Source: Halobellus limi (GTDB taxonomy: Archaea > Halobacteriota > Halobacteria > Halobacteriales > Haloferacaceae). From it: DNA of 64,000 bases. Within the stretch, counting starts at the first letter, position 1; the number at the start of each line of letters is the position of its first letter. Under the pieces are notes generated by a model. The model made no database searches. It was not told the origin of the DNA and worked only from the letters and a program-made list of their open reading frames with translations. Made by a program: the position numbers and the translations under genes. Below are positions 6,757 through 58,121 of this stretch, in pieces. The stretch covers positions 62,001-126,000 of the forward strand of contig NZ_CP031313.1 in NCBI RefSeq assembly GCF_004799685.1, read 5' to 3'.

Positions 6757-7722
6757 CTACAGCACGTCGGGATTGGCCACGTTTTCGAGCGGTTCACCGG
6801 AAAACGCGCGGCGGACGTTCTCCACGTTGCGCCGCCGGAGTTCCGCTACGCTCTCGCGAGACCGATAGGCCGCGTGCGGCGTGAGTACGACGTCATCTCG
6901 CTTGCGGAGGGAGTCGTCGGGTCCCGGCGGTTCTCGTTCGCGGACGTCCAGCGCCGCCCCGGCGATGTCGCCGTCGTCGAGCGCTGCGGTCAGGGCATCC
7001 TCGTCGACGAGTCCGCCGCGAGCGGTGTTGATGAGGTACGCGTCTTCGTCCATCTGTTCGAGAGCCGCTTCGTCGACGAGGTGACGAGTGTCGTCGGTCA
7101 GCGGCGCGTGGAGCGAGACGGCGTCGGCCTCTGTCAGTAGTTCCCCGAAGCTATCGACGGGCGTGATTCCTTGCTCGCGCATCTCGTCGCCGTCGACGTT
7201 CGGGTCGAACGCGACGACGGGTATGTCGAAGGCTTCCGCCCGTTCTGCCACCGCCTGCCCGATGGTCCCGAACGCGACGAGTCCCAGCGTTCGCGTGGAC
7301 AAGCGGTGGAGGTCATCGCCGGCGGCGGCGTCCCACTCGCCGCGCCGCACGCCGTCGTCGAACGAGACGACGTTGCGTTCGAGCGCGAGGAGGAGCGCTA
7401 ACGTGTGTGCCGCGACTTCCGGGACGCAGTAATCCGGCACGTTCGTGACCGGAATTCCGCGTTCCGTCGCCGCCTCGACGTCGACGTTGTCGAGGCCGAT
7501 GCCGCCACGGGCGACGACGCGACACTCGCCGAGTTCGTCGATCACAGCCGCGTCTATCTCCGCGAACGTGACGAGCAACGCGTCGGCGCCCGCGACGAGC
7601 GATTCCAGGGGTTCGTCGGTCTGTTCGCCGTCGACGAGTGTGACGTCGAGGTCGGCGAGCGTCTCGCGTTCGACGTCCAGATCGCCGAAGGGGTGGTCGG
7701 TGAAGACGACTCTGTAACTCAC
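6757..7722 (-). CDS. D-2-hydroxyacid dehydrogenase (C-terminal-binding-protein/SerA-like)
   Basis: Second 2-hydroxyacid dehydrogenase, 321 residues and clearly different in sequence from the one at 3439-4449. The nucleotide site is LVAFGTIG near 148-155; Arg235 in NTARGG, Glu264 in REREPP and His283 in TPHAAY form the catalytic set. The subgroup includes phosphoglycerate dehydrogenase-like and CtBP-like enzymes that act on 2-oxoacids or 2-keto sugar acids. It starts 45 bp after the 3' end side of no co-directional gene: the next upstream gene (7768-8658) is on the same strand and ends 45 bp away, so co-transcription from 8658 or 9475 is likely. Substrate unknown. Confidence 0.88.
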   Translation of the reverse strand: MSYRVVFTDHPFGDLDVERETLADLDVTLVDGEQTDEPLESLVAGADALLVTFAEIDAAVIDELGECRVVARGGIGLDNVDVEAATERGIPVTNVPDYCVPEVAAHTLALLLALERNVVSFDDGVRRGEWDAAAGDDLHRLSTRTLGLVAFGTIGQAVAERAEAFDIPVVAFDPNVDGDEMREQGITPVDSFGELLTEADAVSLHAPLTDDTRHLVDEAALEQMDEDAYLINTARGGLVDEDALTAALDDGDIAGAALDVREREPPGPDDSLRKRDDVVLTPHAAYRSRESVAELRRRNVENVRRAFSGEPLENVANPDVL

Positions 7723-7767: not shown

Positions 7768-8658
7768 TCAGAGCCAGTCCACTTCCTCGGGATCCCGCGT
7801 CGGTGTGACGTTCTGAACCGCGTCGAAGACCCGGTTGACGTTCTCCGTCAGCGGTTGCGAGTAGAATCCCCCTGGAACGTACTCCTGCTGGGTGAAACAC
7901 AGCATAGAACCGAGGAAGGGCGCTATGTACCGCGCCAGCACCCCGTGTTCGCCGTGGCTCATCATAATGAAGGGGACGTCGAGTTCGCGGTCCAGCAGGA
8001 CCGTCGCCTCGAGCGTCTCCAGCATATCCTCCCAGGATCGGTCGACACTGACGAGTTTCACGATGTCCGCCCCGCGGTCCTGAAACGTCTCGGCGACGGC
8101 CAGCGCCTGCTCGGGATCGAGATGGATGCGCGTGTGGGCCGACATCTGGACCTCCGCGCCAAGCTCGTGGATGCGTTCGATCTCCGCTTCTTGGCGCGCG
8201 ACAGCGTCGGGGTCGTCCGTCACCTCGCGTGGCGGGCGCTCGCTCTCGAGCGAGTACCGTTTGGCTTCCTCGGTGAACACGTCGGGGCCGAGTGTCGGGT
8301 CGAACGTGTCGCCGACGAGGTCGACGCACTTCGCGCCCGCCCGGACGGCCCGCCGGAGTATCTCCTGGCGCTCCTCGTCGGTGACGTCGACGGACTCACC
8401 CCCGAAGTGCCAGCGGTAGTAACACGCCATCGTCGGCTTCGACGTGCTCTGGAACAGACGCTCCAGGTGGTCCTCGGTCAGAAACTCCTCACGAAGGCCC
8501 TGGGTGCCGTCACCCATCAGGTTCAGGATGAACGAGTCGGCGCCGGCGAACTCCGATTCCTTCATTATGCTCGTCGCCGCGTCGACCGTCGGCTCGTATA
8601 TCGCGGCGCACGTGAACGGCTGCTCTAGCTCGGTGAATAGGGGGCGGTCGGTCATCAT
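7768..8658 (-). CDS. Type I 3-dehydroquinate dehydratase-fold protein, atypical
   Basis: A TIM-barrel protein of 296 residues with the layout of type I (Schiff-base) dehydroquinase: His175 in MSAHTRIH and Lys201 in IVKLVSV match the catalytic His and imine-forming Lys. The position of the catalytic Glu appears to be Val115 in CVDLVGDTFD, and the C-terminal loop reads VPGGF instead of the usual PGQ. A double ATG (8653-8658) offers two starts one codon apart. A paralogue with the Glu kept lies at 9535-10425, separated by an SDR gene on the same strand. The protein may be a dehydratase or class I aldolase acting on a keto sugar acid rather than the shikimate enzyme. Function is inferred from fold motifs only. 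Confidence 0.7.
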   Translation of the reverse strand: MMTDRPLFTELEQPFTCAAIYEPTVDAATSIMKESEFAGADSFILNLMGDGTQGLREEFLTEDHLERLFQSTSKPTMACYYRWHFGGESVDVTDEERQEILRRAVRAGAKCVDLVGDTFDPTLGPDVFTEEAKRYSLESERPPREVTDDPDAVARQEAEIERIHELGAEVQMSAHTRIHLDPEQALAVAETFQDRGADIVKLVSVDRSWEDMLETLEATVLLDRELDVPFIMMSHGEHGVLARYIAPFLGSMLCFTQQEYVPGGFYSQPLTENVNRVFDAVQNVTPTRDPEEVDWL

Positions 8659-8701
8659 CGGCTGAATCCACGGTGCTACGCGACAAAAGCGTTCCGTCGG
8701 G

Positions 8702-9475
8702 TCAGAAGACGCTGTCAGAGAAGCCGCCGTCGACGGCGATAACCTCGCCCGTGGTGTACGACGCGGCGTCGCTGGCGAGGTAGACGGCCGCGCCGACAAG
8801 TTCCTCGCGCTCGGCGACCCGGTCCATCGGCGCCCGCTCGTCGATCATCGCGCGCTTCTCGGTCCCCTCCCGGTACTGGTTCTCGTTCAGGGCCGTGATG
8901 ACGAATCCCGGTTCGATGGCGTTGACACGGATGTCGGGGGCGAGTTCCTTCGACGCCGCGCGCGTAAATCCGTTGACGCCTGCCTTCGCCGAGGTATACG
9001 CCGGGGCGTTCGGAATGGCGAGGTGCGACGCGAGCGACGAGATGTTGATGATGCTCCCGGTGTCCATTTTGCGGGCGAACGTCTGGACCGAACGGTACAC
9101 CCCGTCAAGCAGGATGTCGTGGACGTGGTCCCACGATTCCTCGTCGATGTCGAGGACCGCCTGGCGCGAGATGACGCCCTGTGAGTTGACCAGCACGTCG
9201 ACGTGACCGAACTCGTCGAGGACGGCGTCCCGGAGCGCCGTGATCGAGCCCCGATCCGTCACGTCGCATGTCTGTTCGATCGTCTTGGCGCCGAGTTCGC
9301 GGATGGCCTCCGTCGTCGCTGCGGTCTTGTCTGCGCTTCGGGACGTCGCCACGACGTCCGCGCCTTCCGTGGCGAATCCGAGCGCGATGGCCTCGCCGAT
9401 GCCGCTTGTTCCACCGACGACGACGGCTGTTTTTCCGTTTACTGTCACTGGTCGGTGTTCGTAGTCTGCGGCCAT
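8702..9475 (-). CDS. SDR-family oxidoreductase (gluconate/3-oxoacyl reductase-like)
   Basis: Classical SDR of 257 residues with GGTSGIGEA near 21-29, the NSQG segment in place of NNAG, Ser in NISSLAS and the YTSAK catalytic pair. The C-terminal TTGEVIAVDGGFSD is typical. It resembles gluconate 5-dehydrogenase, 2-keto-3-deoxygluconate dehydrogenase and related sugar-acid SDRs. It lies between the two dehydroquinase-fold paralogues, 43 bp upstream of one and 59 bp downstream of the other, all on the minus strand, so the three are probably one operon and act on the same carbon skeleton. Confidence 0.88.
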   Translation of the reverse strand: MAADYEHRPVTVNGKTAVVVGGTSGIGEAIALGFATEGADVVATSRSADKTAATTEAIRELGAKTIEQTCDVTDRGSITALRDAVLDEFGHVDVLVNSQGVISRQAVLDIDEESWDHVHDILLDGVYRSVQTFARKMDTGSIINISSLASHLAIPNAPAYTSAKAGVNGFTRAASKELAPDIRVNAIEPGFVITALNENQYREGTEKRAMIDERAPMDRVAEREELVGAAVYLASDAASYTTGEVIAVDGGFSDSVF

Positions 9476-9534
9476 ATGATCTGAGTGGATGGTAACCCAT
9501 TAGAAGCTTGTGGTACGTTACCCGGTCACAGTCC

Positions 9535-10425
9535 TCAGTTGTCGTGATGTGGATCGTAGGCGGTCCGCCAGTCGACCCGCCGAAGCACCTCGCGGGCGTT
9601 GTCGACCAGCGGCCAAGAATGGAATCCGCCGGGCGTCAGTTCCGACTGACCGAACACCCACGCTGCGCCGAACATCGGCGAGATGGGGCGCTGTATTCGG
9701 GAGACGGTCCCGATGGCCATCAGCGCGTACGGGACGTCGACGCGCTCGTTGAGTTCGAGCTGAGCCTCAAGCGTGTCCAGCAGGTCGCGCATGTCGTGGT
9801 CGTACCCGACGATCTTCGCGAAGTCGGCGCCGCGGTGTTCGATCCGTTCCCCGATAGCCACGGCCATAGCGGGCTCCAGGTGCGTGTAGGTGTGACAGGA
9901 GACGATGACCTCCCCGCCGGTGGCGTGGATCCGATCGATGGTCTCGCGCTGGCGCTCGACGGCCCCGGGGTCGTCGGTGATCTCGGCTGGTTCGCTCTCG
10001 GGATCGGTCGCGTATTCAGCGATGGCTTCTGTCGTGAACGACTCGGGACCCGGTGACGGGTCGAAGGTGTCGAGTTCGAAGTCGACGCCGTCGAAGCCCG
10101 CTTCGACGGCCTCGACGAGCATCTCGACGCGCTCCTCGTCGGTGAAGTCGAACAACTCCTCTGCGCCCAGGAGTTCGTAGAACCGGCCCCGACGACAGGT
10201 CGCGTACAGCGGCTGGGATGTCGCCTCCGTCAGTTGCGCTATCTCATCGGCGTCGGGGAAGCCCACCAGCGGCAGGTGGACCTCGAAGGCCCTAGCGCCG
10301 TCGTACTCCGCTTGTTTTATCGTCTTGATGACCTGGGGGATGGACCGGTCGGACGAACTGGTAACGATGAACGGTCGCTCGATTTCGGTCAGTCGCATAC
10401 CAGAATCCACCGCAAGCGGTGACAT
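9535..10425 (-). CDS. Type I 3-dehydroquinate dehydratase-fold protein, complete triad
   Basis: Paralogue of the protein at 7768-8658, with about 296 residues from the ATG at 10423-10425 (an inner ATG at 10396-10398 begins RLTEIERPF and is an equally possible start). All three type I dehydroquinase catalytic residues are visible: Glu117 in VDFELDTF, His178 in VSCHTYTH and Lys204 in FAKIVGY. A C-terminal SRI and PGGF replace the usual SR and PGQ loops. The unusually long spacing between Glu and His (about 60 residues, with an acidic insertion containing PAEITDDPGAVERQ) is shared with the paralogue. This and the sugar-acid context argue against a simple shikimate role. Confidence 0.72.
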   Translation of the reverse strand: MSPLAVDSGMRLTEIERPFIVTSSSDRSIPQVIKTIKQAEYDGARAFEVHLPLVGFPDADEIAQLTEATSQPLYATCRRGRFYELLGAEELFDFTDEERVEMLVEAVEAGFDGVDFELDTFDPSPGPESFTTEAIAEYATDPESEPAEITDDPGAVERQRETIDRIHATGGEVIVSCHTYTHLEPAMAVAIGERIEHRGADFAKIVGYDHDMRDLLDTLEAQLELNERVDVPYALMAIGTVSRIQRPISPMFGAAWVFGQSELTPGGFHSWPLVDNAREVLRRVDWRTAYDPHHDN

Positions 10426-10475: not shown

Positions 10476-10928
10476 TCACATAATCGCATTGAACATACCG
10501 TGGTGCTCGAACGCGTCGAGGACGCCGACGCCGCTTCGAACTGTCTCCCGGAGTTCGTCCTCCGCCTCTTCTATCTCCTCGGCCTCTCCCAGCACGTCGA
10601 CGGCGATGTCCTGAGGAACGACTACGACGCCATTCGCATCCCCGATGGCCACGTCACCGGGCGACACCTCGACGCCGGTTTCGCCGATGTGCGAGGCCGT
10701 ACTCCCGCCGATGTCGTACAGTAAGACCGCGTCCGTGGGTATCTCGAACATCGCGTCTGTTCCGTCGCGGACCTCGGAGAAAACGGTTCGCTCGCGACCG
10801 TCGCTCACTCGAGTCGCTGATGGAGCGCAGCCAGGACGGCCGCAACGAGGTTCGCCGTCGCGTAGAAGGTGGACCATCGTCCCGGCGGGCGCCGGTGGGT
10901 CGTTGGCTCGACCGGTCTGGGAGGCCAA
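10476..10928 (-). pseudogene. RraA-family protein, N-terminally truncated
   Basis: Only the C-terminal half is family-like: VSPGDVAIGDANGVVVVP followed by a long acidic helix and DAFEHHGMF, as in RraA/4-hydroxy-4-methyl-2-oxoglutarate aldolase-like proteins. The frame has 150 residues against the usual 200-230. The active-site region with the VIDGAVRD-type signature is missing, and the first 45 residues are Pro/Arg-rich and non-homologous. A short repeat element starts 9 bp before the open frame begins (10937-10974), which suggests that insertion or excision removed the 5' part. Family members cleave 4-hydroxy-2-oxo acids or remove CO2 from oxaloacetate. The end overlaps the longest frame of the dehydroquinase-like gene by 4 bp. 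Confidence 0.6.
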
Positions 10929-10974: not shown

Positions 10975-11406
10975 CTACTCGCGTTCGAGGAGTTCGATAA
11001 GGTCGTAGATGAGGACCATCTCGCCATCCTGATTGGTCGCCTCGGCGTGGGTCACGACCCGGCCGTACTCGTCGCTCTTCTCTACAGTTTCGACGACTTC
11101 CGTCTTGACGCTGATCGTGTCGCCGATGAACGTCGGATTAACGAACCGGATGGTCTCGAAGCCGTAAAAAAAGGCGTGTTCGTTGTACTCCATCGCCAGC
11201 GCCGCCGAGACGCTCAGGACGAGGAGGCCGTGAGCGATGCGCTCGCTGAAGGAGGACTGAGCGGCGTGTTCGGCGTCGGTGTGGAGCGGATGGAAGTCCC
11301 CTGAGACGCCAGCGAAGTTGACTAGGTCAGCTTCGGTGATCGTTCGCCCGCGGCTCTGGGTGTGCTCTCCCTCTGCTATTTCCTCGAAGTACCGGTCGCG
11401 AACCAT
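10975..11406 (-). CDS. MaoC-like hot-dog dehydratase
   Basis: A 143-residue hot-dog protein with the (R)-hydratase signature VSGDFHPLH (Asp37, His42), so the catalytic pair is complete. Family members hydrate or dehydrate enoyl-CoA esters and work as dimers in the cytoplasm. The start ATG at 11404-11406 gives the usual short N-terminus. It follows a second, altered MaoC gene by 45 bp, so the two may form a heterodimer. The last codons abut the dispersed repeat at 10937-10974; the C-terminus ELLERE is slightly short but acceptable. Confidence 0.88.
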   Translation of the reverse strand: MVRDRYFEEIAEGEHTQSRGRTITEADLVNFAGVSGDFHPLHTDAEHAAQSSFSERIAHGLLVLSVSAALAMEYNEHAFFYGFETIRFVNPTFIGDTISVKTEVVETVEKSDEYGRVVTHAEATNQDGEMVLIYDLIELLERE

Positions 11407-11451: not shown

Positions 11452-11919
11452 TCAGTCTCGCACCGATTCGTTTTCACTCGTCGCGACGATGACGGTCTGG
11501 GTCTCGGTCAGCACGGCGTCGTCGTCCTGATTCGCGAGTTCGACGTCAAGCGTCAGCGACCCCCACTCTTCCGAGCGCTGGTCCGTCTCGATGATCTCCA
11601 TCGCAGCCGATAGCGTGTCGCCGGGATAGACCGGTTCGACGTAGCGGACGTTTTCGTGGCCGTAGTTCAGGGCGAGCGCCGCGGGAGTGGTGACCTCGTC
11701 GGAGAGGAAGCCGTCAGTCACCGCGAGCGTGAGCGTTCCGTGGGCCACGACGCCGTCGACGAGCGGGTGGTCGGCGCAGTACTCGTGGTCGACGTGTGCG
11801 GGATGGGTCGACCCCGTCGCCCCGACGAACATGCGAATGTCGGCTTCCGTGACCGTCCGGCCCTCGCTCTCGAACCGCTCTCCAATCTCGTAGTCCTGAA
11901 AGGTGCGTCCTTCGTACAT
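11452..11919 (-). CDS. MaoC-like hot-dog protein with altered active site
   Basis: A 155-residue hot-dog protein. The hydratase signature is changed to ATGSTHPAH: Ser37 stands where the catalytic Asp is expected, while His42 remains. The ATG at 11917-11919 was chosen; a GTG three codons upstream would overlap the preceding gene. It lies 2 bp downstream of the enolase-superfamily gene and 45 bp upstream of the intact MaoC gene, so all three are likely co-transcribed. The protein could be the structural partner of the neighbouring MaoC, as in two-subunit hydratases, but this is inference. Confidence 0.82.
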   Translation of the reverse strand: MYEGRTFQDYEIGERFESEGRTVTEADIRMFVGATGSTHPAHVDHEYCADHPLVDGVVAHGTLTLAVTDGFLSDEVTTPAALALNYGHENVRYVEPVYPGDTLSAAMEIIETDQRSEEWGSLTLDVELANQDDDAVLTETQTVIVATSENESVRD

Positions 11920-11921
11920 TG

Positions 11922-13058
11922 TTACCACTCCGGGACGTGGAAGTCGCTGCGGTCGACGAAAAGCGGTGCGTTCGGCACGTCGAGGTCGTCTTCGAACAGG
12001 GCGTCGTCGACTTCGATGCCGAGCCCCGGTTTCGACGGTTTCTGGATGTACCCGTCCTCTATCTCGATGGCCGCCGTATCGAGGTAGTCGGCGGCGTCCC
12101 AGGCGCCGAAGAAGTCGGTGCCAGCCACCTCCTGGATGAGGAAGTTCGGGACTGAGAGGTCGACGTGGACGGCGGCGGCCGTCGCAATGGGGCCCTGTGG
12201 ATTGTGGGGTGCGATCCGCATCCCGTGGTGCTCGGCCATGCCGGCGAGGTTCGTAATCACCGAGAGGCCGCCCACGTGACAGATGTCCGGCTGGAGGACG
12301 GCCGCAGCGTCGCGCTGGACGACTGGTTCGAACTCCCGGAGCCCCGTCAGGCGGTCGCCGAGGGCGTAGGGGATCCGGGTGCTGTCGGCGAGTTTCTCGA
12401 CCGCTTTTACGTGTTCCGGTGCGATGAAGTCCTCCGCGAACAGCGGGTCGTACCGTTCGAGTTCCTCAAGAACGTGCTTGGCCTCGGGCAGTTTCCACCG
12501 TGAGGCCGGGTCAAGCATAAGGTCGACATTTGGCCCGACCGCCGCCCGGACTGCAGAGACTACCTCGACCACCTCGTCGACAACCTGAGGATACGCTGGC
12601 GGGTCGTCGGGCGTCGGACTGAACTTGATCGCGTCGAAGCCCTGGTCGACGCGCTCGCGAGCCTGGTCGGGCAGGTCGTTCCGGGAGTCCGCACCGATCC
12701 ACTTGTACGTGCGGACCTCTTCGCGGACTGGCCCGCCCAGCAGTTCGTATACGGGGACACCCAGGTCCTTCCCCTTGATGTCCCAGAGCGCGTGCTCGAT
12801 CCCGGTAAGCGCGCCGTTGGCGACGGGACCTTGATGGTACCAGAGCGCGTCGCCCATCTCTTGCCAGAGCTTCGCTATCGGCGTTGGGTCCCGACCGACG
12901 AGGTACCGGTCACCCAAGCGTTCTACGATATCGAGCGTCGCCTCCGGCGCCGTTTCGACCGACGCTTCCCCATATCCGTCCACGCCGGCGTCGGTCCGGA
13001 TCCGGACACAGGTGGCGCTGCCGCCGAGGTGGACGCTGTCCACGCTGGTGATCTCCAT
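11922..13058 (-). CDS. Enolase-superfamily sugar-acid dehydratase (galactonate dehydratase-like)
   Basis: A 378-residue mandelate-racemase/enolase-superfamily enzyme. Metal ligands are Asp183 in LMLDPASRW, Glu209 in FAEDF and, unusually, Asp235 in LGDRL where Glu is normal. The C-terminal APHNPQGPIA (His285) corresponds to APHCPLGPIA of E. coli DgoD, the best visible similarity. Such enzymes abstract a proton next to the carboxylate and eliminate water, giving a 2-keto-3-deoxy sugar acid. The start ATG 13056-13058 precedes EITSVDSVHL. It heads a likely operon with the MaoC genes. Mandelate racemase itself is excluded by the DgoD-like C-terminus. Confidence 0.85.
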   Translation of the reverse strand: MEITSVDSVHLGGSATCVRIRTDAGVDGYGEASVETAPEATLDIVERLGDRYLVGRDPTPIAKLWQEMGDALWYHQGPVANGALTGIEHALWDIKGKDLGVPVYELLGGPVREEVRTYKWIGADSRNDLPDQARERVDQGFDAIKFSPTPDDPPAYPQVVDEVVEVVSAVRAAVGPNVDLMLDPASRWKLPEAKHVLEELERYDPLFAEDFIAPEHVKAVEKLADSTRIPYALGDRLTGLREFEPVVQRDAAAVLQPDICHVGGLSVITNLAGMAEHHGMRIAPHNPQGPIATAAAVHVDLSVPNFLIQEVAGTDFFGAWDAADYLDTAAIEIEDGYIQKPSKPGLGIEVDDALFEDDLDVPNAPLFVDRSDFHVPEW

Positions 13059-13126
13059 CGAACGAGAGGTGGAGTGGGTTCCATATAAAGCCACAGGTCG
13101 ACTCGGTCACTGTACTCGTTGATTCG

Positions 13127-13209
13127 GACGATGCCGCTCAGGGAACGGACGATGCCGCTCAGGGAACGGACGATGCCGCTCAGGGAACGGACGATGCCGC
13201 TCAGGGAAC
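13127..13209 (-). repeat. Four tandem copies of a 21 bp unit derived from an ORF 3' end
   Basis: The unit GGACGATGCCGCTCAGGGAA(C) occurs four times without spacer at 13127, 13148, 13169 and 13190. The last copy contains the stop codon and final codons (Val-Pro-stop) of the minus-strand zinc alcohol dehydrogenase, so the array is an expansion of that gene's own 3' end into the spacer before the enolase-superfamily gene. The period of 21 is a multiple of three but lies after the stop. Confidence 0.9.
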
Positions 13210-14295
13210 CAGCGTCGCCCGCGCGACGCTCCGGTCGCGGGACCACTCTAGTGCCGTCTCGACGTCTTCGAGCGGGAACTCTGCGTCGAGTACCTCCTCG
13301 AAGGGGTACGCCCCGGCGCGCCGCGCGAGGAACTCGATGGCCTTCCCGAGGTACCACGGATCGTAGCGCATAAGCGATTCGACAGTGATCGACTTTCGCG
13401 TCATTACGCCGGGTTCGAACGTCGTCTCTCTCCCGGGGATGATGTTGCCCATCTCTAGGTACCGTCCCCCGTCGCGGAGCAGCTCGATACCCTCGGTGAA
13501 TGCGTCGGGGACGCCAGTCACCTCGACAGCAACGTCCGCGCCCAAGCCGTCAGTCAGCGACTGCACCTCCTCGGCGCGCTCGTCGATGGTGTCCAGTTCG
13601 GTGAGGTCGATCAGGTGGTCAGCTCCGAAATCGGCCGCGAGGTCGAGTCTGCCCGCGACGCCGTCTATTACGACGACGTCGGCGCCCGCTTCCTTCGCGA
13701 CGGCTACGGCGTTGAGGCCGAGACCGCCGGCGCCTTGGACGACGATCGTGTCCTCCCACGACACCCCGACCACGTCGAAGCCACAGAGAACCTGCGCGAG
13801 CGCGCAGTTGGCCGCGGCGGCGACGCCCTCGTCGATACCATCGGGAACGCGGTAGAAGAACTGATCCGGGTGGATGTAGTAGTGAGTCCCGAAGGTGCCG
13901 TGGAAGTGCGGTTCCCGCCCGGGCGGTCGTGACCAGTACTTGTAGGCGTTCTCACAGAGTCTGAACCGGCCGGCCCCGCACTGGGCGCAGTGGCCACACG
14001 TTGCGAAGTAAGCGGGGACGACGTAGTCACCCACTTCGATCGGTGTTCCGGCGTAGTCAGTCTCCACGCCGTCGCCGAGCGCGACGACTCGGCACAGCGC
14101 TTCGTGGCCGAGCACGCCGTCGCGGATGAGCGGGTGGTCGCCGCTCCATATGTGCAGTTCGGAGCCACAGACGTTGGCCCGAACGACTTCGGTGAGGACG
14201 GCGCCCGGTTCCGGGGCGGGCACGTCGTACTCTCGCAACGAGACCTGTTCCGGGGCTTCGAGGAATGCGAGGGTTCCTCGTTCATCGACTCTCAT
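13201..14295 (-). CDS. Zinc-dependent medium-chain alcohol dehydrogenase
   Basis: A 364-residue MDR enzyme. Catalytic zinc ligands Cys43 (NVCGSE) and His64-Glu65 (GHE) and four structural-zinc cysteines at 100, 103, 106 and 114 (CGHCAQCGAGRFRLC) are present. The Rossmann motif GAGGLG is at 188-193. It resembles threonine/sorbitol dehydrogenase-like enzymes that oxidise polyols or sugar acids. It sits upstream of the enolase-superfamily dehydratase on the same strand with a 142 bp spacer containing the tandem repeat, and may feed it with substrate. Start ATG 14293-14295. Confidence 0.9.
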   Translation of the reverse strand: MRVDERGTLAFLEAPEQVSLREYDVPAPEPGAVLTEVVRANVCGSELHIWSGDHPLIRDGVLGHEALCRVVALGDGVETDYAGTPIEVGDYVVPAYFATCGHCAQCGAGRFRLCENAYKYWSRPPGREPHFHGTFGTHYYIHPDQFFYRVPDGIDEGVAAAANCALAQVLCGFDVVGVSWEDTIVVQGAGGLGLNAVAVAKEAGADVVVIDGVAGRLDLAADFGADHLIDLTELDTIDERAEEVQSLTDGLGADVAVEVTGVPDAFTEGIELLRDGGRYLEMGNIIPGRETTFEPGVMTRKSITVESLMRYDPWYLGKAIEFLARRAGAYPFEEVLDAEFPLEDVETALEWSRDRSVARATLVP

Positions 14296-28116: not shown

Positions 28117-29439
28117 ATGACAGCCAATTTCATTGAGGTAGACGAGTCCGATATCGATCCGGAAGAAGTCCTTCGGGAAGGTGAAGAACCGCTATGGGGT
28201 GGCAAAGAGGTTACGTGGGGGCAAGAACTTACCCGCGAGTACACGAACTGGATTGAAGAGCAACGGTCCTGGCGTGAAACAGTTGCGCTAGGTGATATGA
28301 CATATATGCTCAATCTCCACGTAAAAGGTTCTGACGCAATTAAATTGTTTGATGATACTTCCATTAACAATTTCGATGGGTTCGATGTCGGAGAGTGCAA
28401 ACACGCTGTCCAGTGCAATCATAATGGGAAGATCATTTCTGAGGGAGTTGTCGAATATATTGATGAAGAGCATCTTGCCATCCAAGGATTTCCAGCTCCG
28501 TATCTCATTCACTGTGCTGATGTAGGCGACTACGATGTCTCCACTGAGGTGGTCAAAGATCACGTCTACGAGGTTATCGGCCCTAACGCCCCTGACGTGA
28601 TGGCATCTATTGCTACCGAAGATGTTCTAGATATCCCATTTATGAATCTGTCACATATTGAGATTGCTGATCACGATGTCATCGCAATCCGGCATAGCCT
28701 CGCAGGTGTCCCCGGATTTGAGCTATTAATTCCCGGTGACGCTGCAGATGAAGTTCGAGCTTCCATCGTTGATGCAGGCAAAGAATACGGTCTCCGAGAA
28801 GTCGGAACTCGGACTTGGTATACCACCCGTATCGAATCTGGCCTTCCACAAGGAAATCTCGATTACATCCCAGCGTTGTATACTGATTCAGTTCCTTCGG
28901 CATTCTCTACCGACGGCAGTTTCCAGAGCGATGATATTACGGACTGGTATCGCAGTCCCGTTGAGTTCGGATGGGGACACTACGCCGATCTTGACGGAGA
29001 CTATCCCGGCCGAGATGCTCTCGAAAGAGAAATTGAAAATCCTGTCCGTAAGTTAGTGACTCTAGAGTGGGATCGGGAGGATGTCGCTGATATCTACGGG
29101 TCATTCTTCCGACAGGGCGATACCTACAAATTCCAAGAATTCCCGACCAAACAGCGTGTTGGCGTCCGCGCAGATGAAGTTCGCAAGGACGGCAAATTAA
29201 TTGGCGTCTCAACGACTCCAGGATATATGTATCCTTTCCAGCAGATGCTATCACTGACGACTATCGATGTTGAATATAGCGATCCAGGTACTGAAGTCAC
29301 AGTTCTCTGGGGGGAAGGAGATAATCCAAGCAACCCGATGATCGAGCGCCACACCCAAAAAGAGGTCTCAGCTACCGTTGCACCTGCTCCCTATGAAGAT
29401 AAAGATCGACGTGCCGAGTTCACAGACGGTAGTGTTTAG
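28117..29439 (+). CDS. LigM-like tetrahydrofolate-type O-demethylase / GcvT-fold protein (first copy)
   Basis: A 440-residue GcvT-fold protein. The opening GQELTREYTNWIEEQRSW (about 36-52) followed by GSDAIKLFDDTSINNF (71-86), then the second-domain GVPGFELLIPG and RTWYTTRIESGLPQGN, follows the order seen in LigM-like (vanillate/3-O-methylgallate) demethylases. It is longer than DMSP demethylase or glycine-cleavage T protein. Such enzymes move a methyl from an aryl or other methoxy group to tetrahydrofolate. The last residues (GSV-stop) come from the end of IS6 copy E, which starts at 29428 inside the frame; the native C-terminus has been replaced by a few codons. A paralogue is at 51071-52432. 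The gene is AT-rich. Confidence 0.8.
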   Translation: MTANFIEVDESDIDPEEVLREGEEPLWGGKEVTWGQELTREYTNWIEEQRSWRETVALGDMTYMLNLHVKGSDAIKLFDDTSINNFDGFDVGECKHAVQCNHNGKIISEGVVEYIDEEHLAIQGFPAPYLIHCADVGDYDVSTEVVKDHVYEVIGPNAPDVMASIATEDVLDIPFMNLSHIEIADHDVIAIRHSLAGVPGFELLIPGDAADEVRASIVDAGKEYGLREVGTRTWYTTRIESGLPQGNLDYIPALYTDSVPSAFSTDGSFQSDDITDWYRSPVEFGWGHYADLDGDYPGRDALEREIENPVRKLVTLEWDREDVADIYGSFFRQGDTYKFQEFPTKQRVGVRADEVRKDGKLIGVSTTPGYMYPFQQMLSLTTIDVEYSDPGTEVTVLWGEGDNPSNPMIERHTQKEVSATVAPAPYEDKDRRAEFTDGSV

Positions 29440-51070: not shown

Positions 51071-52432
51071 CTATAGATTCGTCCGTCCACCTTTGACGTA
51101 CGGAGCGTTGGCCACCGTCGCGCGAATCTCGACGGGTTCGTGACGCTCGACACGCTGTTTCTTCGTCTCGTCTCCCCATACGAACGACACTTCTGTCCCG
51201 GGTTCGCTGTACTCGGGGTCCACCACTGCGAGCGAGAGCATCTCACGCTCGTACGAGAGATACCCGGGGTACTTCGATAGCCCAATCATTTCACCGTCGT
51301 CGACGATCTTGTCGTAATGCATCGCCGACCAGCGGGTCGCAACATCAGGTAGGTTGATGAACTTGCTCGTCTCACCTTCTCGGAACAACGACGCGTAGAC
51401 GTCGACGACGTCGTCGACGTCCCAGACGAGAGTGACTCGCTCGCGCTGTTCCTGCTCCATCATCTCTTGCAAGGCGTCTTTGCCGACGAAGTCGTGGTCG
51501 AAGTCGATTAAGTGAGATTTCCCCTGCTCGATGGGGTTCATATAGTAGTCCGTGATATCGTCAGACTCGTAGCTTCCGCCGATCGAGAGGCTGGCCTCCA
51601 TACTGTCTGCGTCTAACCACTCCCGATAGCCTTGGAGTTCGTCGTGTTCGTAGATGGCAGGCACCGCCGCAACGAACCATCCCGAGCCGATTTTCCCCGT
51701 CTTGTAGGCCTGTGTCCCCAGTTGCCGAATGCCGTACTGTTCACCCACCTCGAGGATGCTGTCGAGAACCTCGTCGTGATGCTCGTGAGGACCGAAGATC
51801 TCGAGACCGGGCATCGCGGCCATCCCGTGACCAAGTGCGAACGTTCGAACACCGTCTATTTCGATCGTATCCATCTCGAAGAACGAGATGTCGGGGAGCG
51901 AACCGTCAGCGACCTCTTCCATAACGTCCATTGCGTGGGGGCCCTGCACCTGGAACCTGAATTCCGGGGGGTCCTGATCGTCGAAGGGATGGTACGGTAT
52001 CTCCAAATCGACGTTGTACTCGCCCGCCTCGGCGTTGTATCGAATCCAGTTGTTGATCCACTCGGAGCCGACTGAGGAGAATCTGTTCTCGCCGAAATAA
52101 AAGACGATGACGTCGCCGATCACGTATCCGTCCGGATTGCAAGTCAGGTAATTGATCGCCTGTGGAGGATCGCCGTCTCTGACCTTTTGGAAGCTGTTTA
52201 CCGAGAGCGATTCGAGTAGATCCACGGCGTCGGGGCCCTCGATTTCGAGTATTTCCATATGGTAAGACTGGTCCACGACGGCACAGGATTTAGCGACTGC
52301 CCGTTGTTCTTCGATCCAGTTCGTGTACTCGTCCTCGAAGACGTACGGTTGCCAGCCGAGATCGGTATTACGGAACGTCTCGGCAGGATTTTCGACCGAC
52401 TGCAACACCTGTGCCAGTGACTTCTCGGTCAT
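51071..52432 (-). CDS. LigM-like tetrahydrofolate-type O-demethylase / GcvT-fold protein (second copy)
   Basis: A 453-residue GcvT-fold protein, full length for the LigM group. It opens with SLAQVLQSVENPAETF, then FEDEYTNWIEEQRAVAKS, VVDQSYHMEILEIEGPDAV, and later GHGMAAMPGLEIFGPHEHHD, GTQAYKTGKIGSGWFVAAVP and DYYMNPIEQGKSHLIDFDHD. The order and phrases (SYHM, AGAPGLEIWGP-like, PLPAIY-like) are those of LigM from sphingomonads. LigM moves the methyl of vanillate or 3-O-methylgallate to tetrahydrofolate. The first copy at 28117-29439 is only distantly similar. The gene is 102 bp upstream of the Gfo/Idh/MocA gene on the same strand and may be co-transcribed. Substrate may be an aromatic or a methylated sugar acid. 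Confidence 0.82.
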   Translation of the reverse strand: MTEKSLAQVLQSVENPAETFRNTDLGWQPYVFEDEYTNWIEEQRAVAKSCAVVDQSYHMEILEIEGPDAVDLLESLSVNSFQKVRDGDPPQAINYLTCNPDGYVIGDVIVFYFGENRFSSVGSEWINNWIRYNAEAGEYNVDLEIPYHPFDDQDPPEFRFQVQGPHAMDVMEEVADGSLPDISFFEMDTIEIDGVRTFALGHGMAAMPGLEIFGPHEHHDEVLDSILEVGEQYGIRQLGTQAYKTGKIGSGWFVAAVPAIYEHDELQGYREWLDADSMEASLSIGGSYESDDITDYYMNPIEQGKSHLIDFDHDFVGKDALQEMMEQEQRERVTLVWDVDDVVDVYASLFREGETSKFINLPDVATRWSAMHYDKIVDDGEMIGLSKYPGYLSYEREMLSLAVVDPEYSEPGTEVSFVWGDETKKQRVERHEPVEIRATVANAPYVKGGRTNL

Positions 52433-54814: not shown

Positions 54815-54867
54815 CTCACTCCGACCGAGCCAATATCTTTTAATAGGTGGAATTCCCGTTGACAAGT

Positions 54868-55599
54868 ATGCGACGAGTACGCGTTCGCGACGATGCAGGA
54901 AGTATTCGGAACGGCGAATGGATCGACGACGAGATCGTCCTCAACACGGGAACCTACGACCCGTCCGCACTCACTATCTTGCCTCCTGTAGAGCCGACTA
55001 AAATCGTGTGCGTCGGTCTCAATTACGCCGATCACGCCGCAGAGGAGGATATGTCGATCCCGGATCGACCGATGTTGTTCTTGAAACCGCCCAACACAAT
55101 TTCCAGCCACGGCGACACCGTGGTACTCCCGCGCAACAAAGACGAGGTAGAGTTCGAAGCGGAGATAGGTATTGTCATCGGAACACAGTGTCGAAATGTC
55201 GATGAAACTGACGCAATGGACGTTGTTGCGGGTTTCACGTGCGTGGACGACCTCTCCAACCGAGACGATCAACGGGTTGAACAGAACTGGGTCCGCGGCA
55301 AAGCATTCGATAACGCTGCGCCGATCGGACCCGTCGTGGCCGGCCCCGAACACGTCCCTGAGGATGCTCGCGTCCAGCTCGCCGTAAACGGAGAAAAGAG
55401 ACAATCGTCCTCGCGGAGTGAGTGGATATTCTCGCTTGAAGAACTCGTATCAGAAGTGACTCAATATATGACACTCGAGCGAGGGGACATCATCTCGACC
55501 GGAACTCCCGCCGGTGTCGGACCACTTGAGGACGGAGACACCGTCGAAGTGACCGTCGAAGGCGTCGGTACCCTCGAACACACCGTGAAACGAGAGTAG
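54868..55599 (+). CDS. Fumarylacetoacetate hydrolase-family protein (small form)
   Basis: A 243-residue FAH-domain protein. The start region MRRVRVRDDAG is followed by VCVGLNYADHAAE, the metal-binding EVEFEAEIGIVIG, DDLSNRDDQ, KAFDNAAPIGP and STGTPAGVGPLEDGD, in the family order. Members hydrolyse or decarboxylate 2-keto-diacids, or act as acylpyruvate hydrolases or 2-keto-3-deoxy acid dehydratases. The ATG 54868 lies 30 bp after a TATA box; a GTG seven codons upstream is inside the leader. It converges with the aldehyde dehydrogenase 42 bp downstream. Substrate unresolved: this form is close to meta-cleavage hydrolases as well as to sugar-acid enzymes. Confidence 0.9.
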   Translation: MRRVRVRDDAGSIRNGEWIDDEIVLNTGTYDPSALTILPPVEPTKIVCVGLNYADHAAEEDMSIPDRPMLFLKPPNTISSHGDTVVLPRNKDEVEFEAEIGIVIGTQCRNVDETDAMDVVAGFTCVDDLSNRDDQRVEQNWVRGKAFDNAAPIGPVVAGPEHVPEDARVQLAVNGEKRQSSSRSEWIFSLEELVSEVTQYMTLERGDIISTGTPAGVGPLEDGDTVEVTVEGVGTLEHTVKRE

Positions 55600-55641: not shown

Positions 55642-57090
55642 TTAAAAACTATTGTACACGGTCTTTTCGATCGTGTAGAATCCGATTCCGGCCTCGCCCT
55701 GTTCACGCCACGTTTCGCTCGAGGACTGTTTGAACCCGCCAAACGGAACGTGTAGCTCGAGTCCGGTCGTCTTGTCGTTGACCTTGGCGACGCCCGCCTC
55801 GACTTCACGGACGAATCGCTCCGCTTCAGTGTGACTGTCTGTGACGATAGAGGCAGACAACCCATAAGATGTACCGTTAGCGACAGTGAGTGCGTCTTCG
55901 AAGCTTTCAGCCTCGATGACGGCGAGAAGAGGGCCGAAAACCTCCTCTTGTGCAATCCGGTGGTCAGGATCGACATCCGAAAAGATGGTCGGTTCGACGA
56001 AGTATCCCTCCCGTAATCGTTCGCCATCGGGCCTTCCGCCTCCGATCTCGAGATTCGCGCCGTCTTTCTCCGCGATATCGACGTATTCGAGGGTTCCCTC
56101 GAGTTCGTTCTCGCTGATTTGTGGACCCATATCGGAGTTTTCACCGGGACCCACGTCGATCTCGTTCGCACGTGCGATGACAGCGTCGACGAATTCGTCG
56201 TAGATGTCGGTGTGTACGATCGCTCGGGAACAAGCAGTACACGCTTGTCCGGTCACGCCGAAAGCACCCGCACTGACGAGATCGGCCGCTTCTTCGAGGT
56301 CGGCGCTGGGCGTGACAATGGTGGGATTCTTCCCGCCGAGTTCGGTCTGTACGCGCTTTCCGTTGTCCGTCGCCTTGGAGTACACGGCCTCGCCAACCTT
56401 GCTTGACCCGGTGAACGAAACGGCGTCAACGCCATCGTGAGAGATTATCGCATCGCCGACGGTGCTGCCGGGCCCGGTAACGACGTTCGCGACGCCGGGG
56501 GGGAGTCCTGCTTCATCGAATGCCTCGAACAGTTCGACTGCGACGCCGGGGGCAAGCGATGCCGGATTGAGTACGACCGTGTTACCTGTTGCGAGCGCAG
56601 GCGCGAGCTTCCAAGCTGGTATCGCGATGGGATAGTTCCACGGCGTGATCAACGCAGCAACGCCGACTGGCACATCGACCGTGTAGAGCCCGCTCTGTGG
56701 TTTGCTCGAAGATTTTACGCTCCCTCCAAGATCCCGCGTTTTTTCAGCAAAGTAATAGAAGATGTCGACGGCCCGTTGTACCTCTCCGCTCGCCTCGGCG
56801 TGTGTCTTCCCCTCTTCTCTTATGAGCAATTGGGTGAGTTCCTCCTTCCTGTCCGCGAGAATCGAACCGGCGCCGCGCAAAATTGCGCCGCGCTCAGGGG
56901 CAGGCGTGGCGGCCCAATCGCCTTGAGCCGAAACGGCGGCTTCGACAGCGGCGTTCGCGTCTTTAGCCACCGATCGTGGATATTCGGCAACAACGTCGTT
57001 GGGGCTCGCGGGGTCTGTAGTTTCGAAATATTCGCCATTCGACGGTTCTCTCCACTCACCATCCACGTAGTTCTGGTATGAGGTCACCAC
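55642..57090 (-). CDS. Aldehyde dehydrogenase (2-oxoglutarate semialdehyde dehydrogenase-like)
   Basis: A complete 482-residue aldehyde dehydrogenase. Asn152 in TPWNYPIA, Glu250 in TELGGKNP and nucleophile Cys284 in GQACTACSR are present. The normally invariant Lys of the VVLKPA motif is Asn175 here (VVLNPASLAP), which may alter cofactor binding. Start is GTG at 57088-57090 (a second GTG is at 57085-57087), with TATA-like AATATAAAT 25 bp upstream. It is divergent from the keto-deoxy acid dehydratase gene at 57249. With that gene it should oxidise 2-oxoglutarate semialdehyde to 2-oxoglutarate, the last step of the Weimberg pathway. Confidence 0.9.
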   Translation of the reverse strand: MVTSYQNYVDGEWREPSNGEYFETTDPASPNDVVAEYPRSVAKDANAAVEAAVSAQGDWAATPAPERGAILRGAGSILADRKEELTQLLIREEGKTHAEASGEVQRAVDIFYYFAEKTRDLGGSVKSSSKPQSGLYTVDVPVGVAALITPWNYPIAIPAWKLAPALATGNTVVLNPASLAPGVAVELFEAFDEAGLPPGVANVVTGPGSTVGDAIISHDGVDAVSFTGSSKVGEAVYSKATDNGKRVQTELGGKNPTIVTPSADLEEAADLVSAGAFGVTGQACTACSRAIVHTDIYDEFVDAVIARANEIDVGPGENSDMGPQISENELEGTLEYVDIAEKDGANLEIGGGRPDGERLREGYFVEPTIFSDVDPDHRIAQEEVFGPLLAVIEAESFEDALTVANGTSYGLSASIVTDSHTEAERFVREVEAGVAKVNDKTTGLELHVPFGGFKQSSSETWREQGEAGIGFYTIEKTVYNSF

Positions 57091-57248: not shown

Positions 57249-58121
57249 ATGCGGTATTATCACCTGTGGAACGATCACCAGCAGCAACTTATCGTAGAAC
57301 GAGGCAAGTCACTGTTTAACCTCGCTGAAGCCACACCCTCGGTTCAACGGTTCGAGGACATTTTGAAAGGGGCTGCAGTCACAAATCAGCCAATCGACAC
57401 CATTGCCGAGATGTTGATCGAAGATGCGGCCCCTCTTTCGAGAGAAGTTCTCGAAGAGAGACCGCTCTCGATGCCATTGTCACCTGACGAGGTGTGGGCG
57501 GCAGGAGTCACCTATCGTATTAGCGAAGAGGCTCGCAAAACAGAGAGTTCGATGCCAGAGATATATTTGGACGCCTACCAGAGCGACCGGCCGGAGTTGT
57601 TCTTCAAAGCAACGGCTGATCGGACCGTCGGACCAAATGAGGCAGTCGGTATCCGTCGGGATTCGGAGTGGGACGTCCCGGAACCCGAACTCGGAGTGGT
57701 TATGAGTTACGGAAAGGTCATCGGATACACCATCGGAAACGACGTCAGCAGCCGATCCATCGAGGGACAAAATCCTTTGTATCTCCCTCAGGCGAAAGTG
57801 TACGATCGATGTTGTGCACTCGGTCCGTGCATCCGTTCGGCTGCGTCCCTCGAAGACCCCCACACGCTTGAGATGTGGATGTCTATCCGTCGAGACGACG
57901 AGATCGTTTACGAGGAGTCGACGAATACGAGCGAAATGGTACGGACGGTCGAAGAGTTAGTTAGCTACTACTCCGATCATAACTCTTTACCTCGGACTTC
58001 CGTCCTTTTGACCGGGACATCGCTAGTTCCAGAGGACGAATTTACGCTTCGGGCTGCCGACAACATTGAAATTGGGATCGAGGGTATTGGAACACTTTCT
58101 AACTCCGTCGTCGAGGTGTAA
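57249..58121 (+). CDS. 2-keto-3-deoxy-pentonate dehydratase-like FAH-family enzyme
   Basis: A 290-residue enzyme of the FAH superfamily. The core VWAAGVTYRISEEARKTES, RPELFFKATADRTVGP, DVPEPELGVVM (metal ligands Glu145, Glu147), GNDVSSRSIEGQNPLYLPQA (Asp165, Lys183) is that of 2-dehydro-3-deoxy-D-arabinonate/xylonate dehydratases (KdaD; XacE of Haloferax). They convert 2-keto-3-deoxy-pentonate to 2-oxoglutarate semialdehyde. A TATA-like ATTATAA is 28 bp before the ATG at 57249. The gene pairs divergently with the aldehyde dehydrogenase that would take the product. Confidence 0.92.
   Translation: MRYYHLWNDHQQQLIVERGKSLFNLAEATPSVQRFEDILKGAAVTNQPIDTIAEMLIEDAAPLSREVLEERPLSMPLSPDEVWAAGVTYRISEEARKTESSMPEIYLDAYQSDRPELFFKATADRTVGPNEAVGIRRDSEWDVPEPELGVVMSYGKVIGYTIGNDVSSRSIEGQNPLYLPQAKVYDRCCALGPCIRSAASLEDPHTLEMWMSIRRDDEIVYEESTNTSEMVRTVEELVSYYSDHNSLPRTSVLLTGTSLVPEDEFTLRAADNIEIGIEGIGTLSNSVVEV

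Follow-up and report, generated by a model that had tools for sequence, protein, structure and literature searches.

Type I dehydroquinase (AroD, or DHQ1; PF01487, TIGR01093) is known almost exclusively as an enzyme of the shikimate pathway. A literature search found no paper on a dehydroquinase relative with another function, or on dehydroquinase-like catabolic enzymes. In published structures the carboxylate of 3-dehydroquinate (DHQ) is contacted by Arg213 and Gln236, the C4 and C5 hydroxyls are bound by Glu46, Arg48 and Arg82, and Asp114 lies nearby via a water (PMC9902378; E. coli AroD numbering for all reference positions). The H143Q substitution abolishes AroD activity (PMC9074039). Among enzymes of sugar-acid breakdown, the Schiff-base dehydratases and aldolases of non-phosphorylative routes (DHDPS/NAL superfamily, such as L-KDP dehydratase and KDG aldolase) resemble the proteins described here in a predicted Lys-imine within a TIM barrel and in their sugar-acid dehydratase, SDR and FAH neighbors. 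Route III, described for L-rhamnose, L-fucose and pentoses, proceeds through a dehydrogenase and an FAH hydrolase without a dehydroquinase-fold step (PMC6336799).

The two proteins, A and B, are encoded in a 64,000-nucleotide stretch (the window) of C3, a 208-kb secondary replicon (plasmid; 207,965 bases) in a 3.75-Mb haloarchaeal genome. Their genes belong to a tight, co-directional run of nine minus-strand genes that reads from 14295 to 6757, with intergenic gaps of at most about 150 bases, mostly 45-80, as measured from ORF coordinates with start sites of our choosing. In order of transcription the run comprises:

13201-14295, minus strand: Zn-dependent alcohol/polyol dehydrogenase, first in the run (profile match)
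11922-13052, minus strand: enolase-superfamily sugar-acid dehydratase (NCBIfam galactonate dehydratase model, 330.2 against a cut-off of 311)
11452-11928, minus strand: MaoC-like hydratase domain protein (domain profile match)
10975-11406, minus strand: MaoC-like hydratase domain protein (domain profile match)
10476-10928, minus strand: RraA-like ORF, probably a truncated fragment (RraA-type models matched by the C-terminal ~60 residues only)
9535-10398, minus strand: protein B, B-type dehydroquinase-fold protein, 287 amino acids (PF01487, 66.0 bits; top Foldseek matches Salmonella AroD)
8702-9475, minus strand: SDR family dehydrogenase, between B and A (PF13561, 208 bits)
7768-8655, minus strand: protein A, A-type dehydroquinase-fold protein, 295 amino acids (PF01487, 67.4 bits; top Foldseek matches Salmonella AroD)
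6757-7722, minus strand: D-2-hydroxyacid dehydrogenase, last in the run (domain profile match; counterparts near the A-type genes of L013 and L015)

Because the relatives of B begin M-R-L-S-D, its start is probably at 10398 rather than at 10425. The Zn-dehydrogenase gene carries four perfect 21-bp tandem repeats (13125-13209) at its 3' end.

The original prediction, made from the DNA letters, had described two dehydroquinase-fold paralogs separated by an SDR gene among sugar-acid genes, and the profile matches of A, B and their neighbors bear this out. Both proteins clear the PF01487 gathering cut-off of 22.2 bits, and with E-values of 3e-18 (A) and 7e-18 (B) these matches are not due to chance. 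The same Pfam scan returned PF01487 only for both, with no match to the DHDPS/NAL family (PF00701); unlike those enzymes, A and B are related to AroD. A profile built from the family matches solved AroD chains with E-values down to 3e-13. Structure prediction, which had been proposed as a check, agrees: AlphaFold models from a four-sequence input, of moderate quality and weakest around the closing loop (pLDDT 68.8 and pTM 0.74 for A; 71.6 and 0.76 for B), have type I dehydroquinases as their first 44 Foldseek matches in the PDB, with E-values from 8e-10 (A) and 3e-10 (B), and share the AroD TIM barrel. A and B are thus dehydroquinase-related, at about 20-29% identity to AroD. Two further criteria were not diagnostic. 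The PROSITE dehydroquinase signature is not matched by A or B, but several haloarchaeal AroD proteins do not match it either, and the curated TIGR01093 cut-off of 139.3 bits is missed by A and B (53 and 40 bits) but also by the genome's real AroD (115.8 bits).

Alignment to AroD places the residues of interest at the following codons:

8056-8058, minus strand: A Lys200, predicted Schiff-base lysine (AroD Lys170)
8134-8136, minus strand: A His174, predicted general acid/base (AroD His143)
8314-8316, minus strand: A Val114, at the AroD Glu116 position
7864-7875, minus strand: A PGGF motif, replacing the APGQ (Gln236) of the substrate-covering loop of AroD
9814-9816, minus strand: B Lys195, predicted Schiff-base lysine (AroD Lys170)
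9892-9894, minus strand: B His169, predicted general acid/base (AroD His143)
10075-10077, minus strand: B Glu108, at the AroD Glu116 position
9622-9633, minus strand: B PGGF motif

The predicted His/Lys pair is therefore present in both proteins as had been claimed, together with the equivalents of Arg213 (A R242, B R237) and Asp114 (A D112, B D106), and all four residues are invariant in A, B and seven relatives, nine of nine clade members, including one bacterial protein. The surrounding pocket is different. Gln236 is replaced by Gly in both A and B, as the predicted exchange of PGQ for PGGF implied, whereas APGQ is kept in every AroD sequence aligned. Of the three diol-binding residues Glu46, Arg48 and Arg82, none is kept in A (I43, N45 and Y80), and B retains the first and the last (E39, H41 and R69); the Glu46 and Arg48 assignments come from an hmmsearch alignment to 2gpt and that of Arg82 from hhalign, as the joint MAFFT alignment of A and B with AroD misplaces strand 2 and its rows for Glu46, Arg48 and Asp50 were not used.

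One paralog had been said to have an altered catalytic triad, with Val in place of Glu. The residues do differ as described, but they lie in the DLEL motif at Glu116, where B has the Glu of AroD and A has Val, and not at the triad residue Glu86. By hhalign, the residue aligned with Glu86 is Phe in both proteins (A F84, B F73), and the textbook triad is thus missing from each. Phe likewise occupies this position in the genome's real AroD, which makes it a poor guide to function. Among presumed biosynthetic AroD proteins, Phe at this position is found in the own enzyme (L001:1447-2196, on C1) and in that of G091 (L035), while several other haloarchaea keep Glu. The long acidic insertion reported before the His is likewise half right: the span from the Asp114 equivalent to the His covers about 62-63 residues in A and B but 28-29 in AroD, both the own and that of E. 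coli, with about 34 extra residues after strand 4, but the acidic fraction of the extra stretch (about 0.27) is ordinary for a halophile, given 0.29 in the matching segment of the own AroD, and we rejected acidity as a special feature. The family also has a motif after strand 4, D-x-[VEM]-[GL]-D-x-[FY]-D-P, found in nine of nine members and in none of the AroD sequences aligned.

The search for a separate aroD, also proposed as a check, located one on the main chromosome (C1), so that neither A nor B is the genome's only dehydroquinase. Its product has Glu46, Arg48, Asp50, Arg82, His143, Lys170, Arg213 and Gln236, and because this full DHQ-binding set is encoded elsewhere, a biosynthetic role for A and B is unlikely. 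Searches of five carrier genomes located, in all five, one high-scoring aroD in addition to the family member or members. A and B might instead be extra or catabolic 3-dehydroquinate dehydratases serving quinate or shikimate use, in keeping with the public annotation of their relatives. The PF01487 match, the four invariant residues, the Glu46, Arg82 and Glu116 equivalents in B, and the lack of Glu86 in the real AroD would all accommodate such a role, but Gln236 and Arg48 are replaced in both proteins and Glu46 and Arg82 in A, the TIGR01093 scores are less than half that of the own AroD, and no quinate or dehydroshikimate gene was recognized among the neighbors scanned; we regard this explanation as rather improbable. 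Some activity on DHQ could nevertheless persist, above all in B, since it has Glu116 as in AroD and since Phe replaces Glu86 in the real AroD too.

Given the retained Lys, His and Arg, the changed pocket, the separate AroD and the catabolic setting, a Schiff-base lyase acting on another keto acid is the simplest account of A and B. We lean, by a modest degree, towards the view that both are active enzymes and belong to a rare clade which split from type I dehydroquinase and was recruited to break down sugar acids or keto acids related to them. More tentatively, and with rather less than even confidence, we propose that the clade is a new catabolic family that would apply the Lys-imine and His machinery of dehydroquinase to a non-shikimate keto sugar acid, with A and B serving two steps or two substrates within one operon. 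An imine would link a ketone of the substrate to the conserved Lys (A K200, B K195). The alpha proton would go to the conserved His (A H174, B H169) and from there to the leaving hydroxyl, with the conserved Arg (A R242, B R237) anchoring the carboxylate in the manner of Arg213 in AroD. Overall, the reaction would most likely be beta-elimination of water from a beta-hydroxy-keto acid, at a step upstream or downstream of those catalyzed by the SDR, the hydroxyacid dehydrogenase and the enolase-type dehydratase of the operon. The substrates of A and B probably differ, because B keeps the Glu46 and Arg82 equivalents and A none of the three diol-binding residues. The fold, the conserved residues, the clade, the separate aroD and the gene context are observations, from which we infer catalysis, reaction type and pathway. 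If this is correct, the clade would be a natural example of the re-use of a Schiff-base active site with a changed substrate pocket, and would draw attention to a step of archaeal sugar-acid catabolism that is not yet assigned.

The idea of new Schiff-base dehydratases or aldolases, raised in the original prediction, fits the retention of Lys, His and Arg alongside the replacement of several DHQ-recognition residues, which nonetheless leaves the two reaction types unseparated. As class I retro-aldolases, A and B would use the Lys imine to split a keto-deoxy sugar acid at a C-C bond rather than to remove water. Schiff-base TIM barrels are common to keto-deoxy acid aldolases and dehydratases, and the operon has a galactonate-dehydratase-type enolase but no keto-deoxy acid aldolase that we recognized among the genes scanned; moreover, the sole DHDPS-family (PF00701) protein of the genome is DapA. 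Against this, every one of the closest relatives with an established function is a dehydratase, and the three to five DHDPS-family matches in other carriers disfavor any general replacement. For lack of a correlation across carriers, the more specific notion that A or B replaces a missing KDPG aldolase was rejected. We consider retro-aldol cleavage unlikely, and dehydration the more likely of the two on the basis of descent from a dehydratase. DapA is encoded at C1:2234741-2235595 (345.8 against a cut-off of 206), and the own genome yielded no KD(P)G aldolase of the DHDPS type.

Carriers of A- and B-type genes are rare. With the own genome counted, they make up 4 of the 170 genomes from the taxonomic family of the window; in the draws at phylum, class and order level they number 2 of 393, 2 of 391 and 3 of 392, respectively. 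Plasmids of Natrinema and Halomarina encode further relatives, as does a Mesorhizobium plasmid with a protein at about 30% identity, and none was found in the viral contigs searched. The Natrinema and Mesorhizobium members are publicly annotated as 'type I 3-dehydroquinate dehydratase', labels that would need correcting if our proposal holds. In a maximum-likelihood tree the A/B clade, including the Mesorhizobium relative, stands apart from AroD (100/99), with the A-type proteins forming their own group (96/98) and the B-type proteins also a single group, though less well supported (80/92). A shares 68% identity with its Natrinema A-type counterpart but only 41-42% with its neighbor B, which led us to reject a recent tandem duplication; A and B represent two old sister subfamilies encoded side by side.

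Every other carrier found, six haloarchaea and the Mesorhizobium record, has a single member, three of these seven being represented by plasmid records only. A-type genes occur without a B-type gene in A07HR60 and G091 (whole-genome searches) and in Natrinema and Halomarina (plasmid records only), and B-type genes without an A-type gene in Salinigranum and G739 (whole-genome searches). It had been suggested that A and B act as a heteromer, in which one subunit would be catalytic and the other structural or regulatory. Their genes do share one co-directional run in the window, yet the carriers with only A or only B argue against an obligate heteromer, if weakly, and the Lys and His are kept in both proteins; we give this arrangement very little credence. 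Just as improbable, in our view, is that A and B are non-catalytic or decaying dehydroquinase copies, such as binding or regulatory proteins. Substrate-pocket residues have indeed been lost, and the domains of fungal Aro1 show that catalytic loss can occur (PMC9074039), but decay in Aro1 strikes the catalytic dyad itself, which A and B keep, and the His, Lys, Arg213 and Asp114 equivalents are invariant in nine divergent members, one of them bacterial, with reading frames intact.

Recruitment of the clade to sugar-acid catabolism fits most, but not all, of the genomic contexts in other carriers. In G156, G091 and G739, an FAH-family hydrolase gene accompanies the A- or B-type gene at a distance of 0.7, 1.7 and 2.2 kb, respectively, and in Mesorhizobium one lies 60 bp upstream of the family member, whereas the four haloarchaeal carriers, the own genome excluded, have just two to six FAH genes per genome; this association was spotted after the fact and without formal statistics. 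The FAH genes at these loci score below the curated cut-off of the rhamnonate hydrolase model. RhmD-like enolases are encoded near the B-type genes of L014 and L044, the latter also having two paired LUD-type proteins and a regulator of the IclR type nearby. In the window, L013 and L015, the neighbors of the A-type gene include a 2-hydroxyacid dehydrogenase. Enolase-type dehydratase, SDR, FAH hydrolase and lactate/hydroxyacid dehydrogenase are classes that several of these loci have in common with Route III (PMC6336799). The Natrinema and Halomarina A-type genes are surrounded by CoA-ligase and acyl-CoA genes, and no enolase or FAH match was found among the neighbors scanned.

The FAH genes closest to A and B in the own genome lie at a distance of about 45 kb but still within the window (54847-55599 and 57249-58121). 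They flank, one on either side, a gene for 2,5-dioxovalerate dehydrogenase (55642-57090; 829.6 against a curated cut-off of 750), an arrangement that suggests a second, Weimberg-type sugar-acid route within the window. In L014, a LigM/DesA-like GCV_T protein is encoded directly adjacent to the B-type gene. The own genome has 11 GCV_T proteins, counting the one in the window, whose top-scoring NCBIfam models, matched below the cut-off, are those of syringate/vanillate O-demethylases (DesA/LigM). The loci concerned are 51071-52432 and 28207-29400 of the window and the C3 and C1 replicons, with several of the proteins encoded on C3 and one just downstream of the chromosomal aroD.
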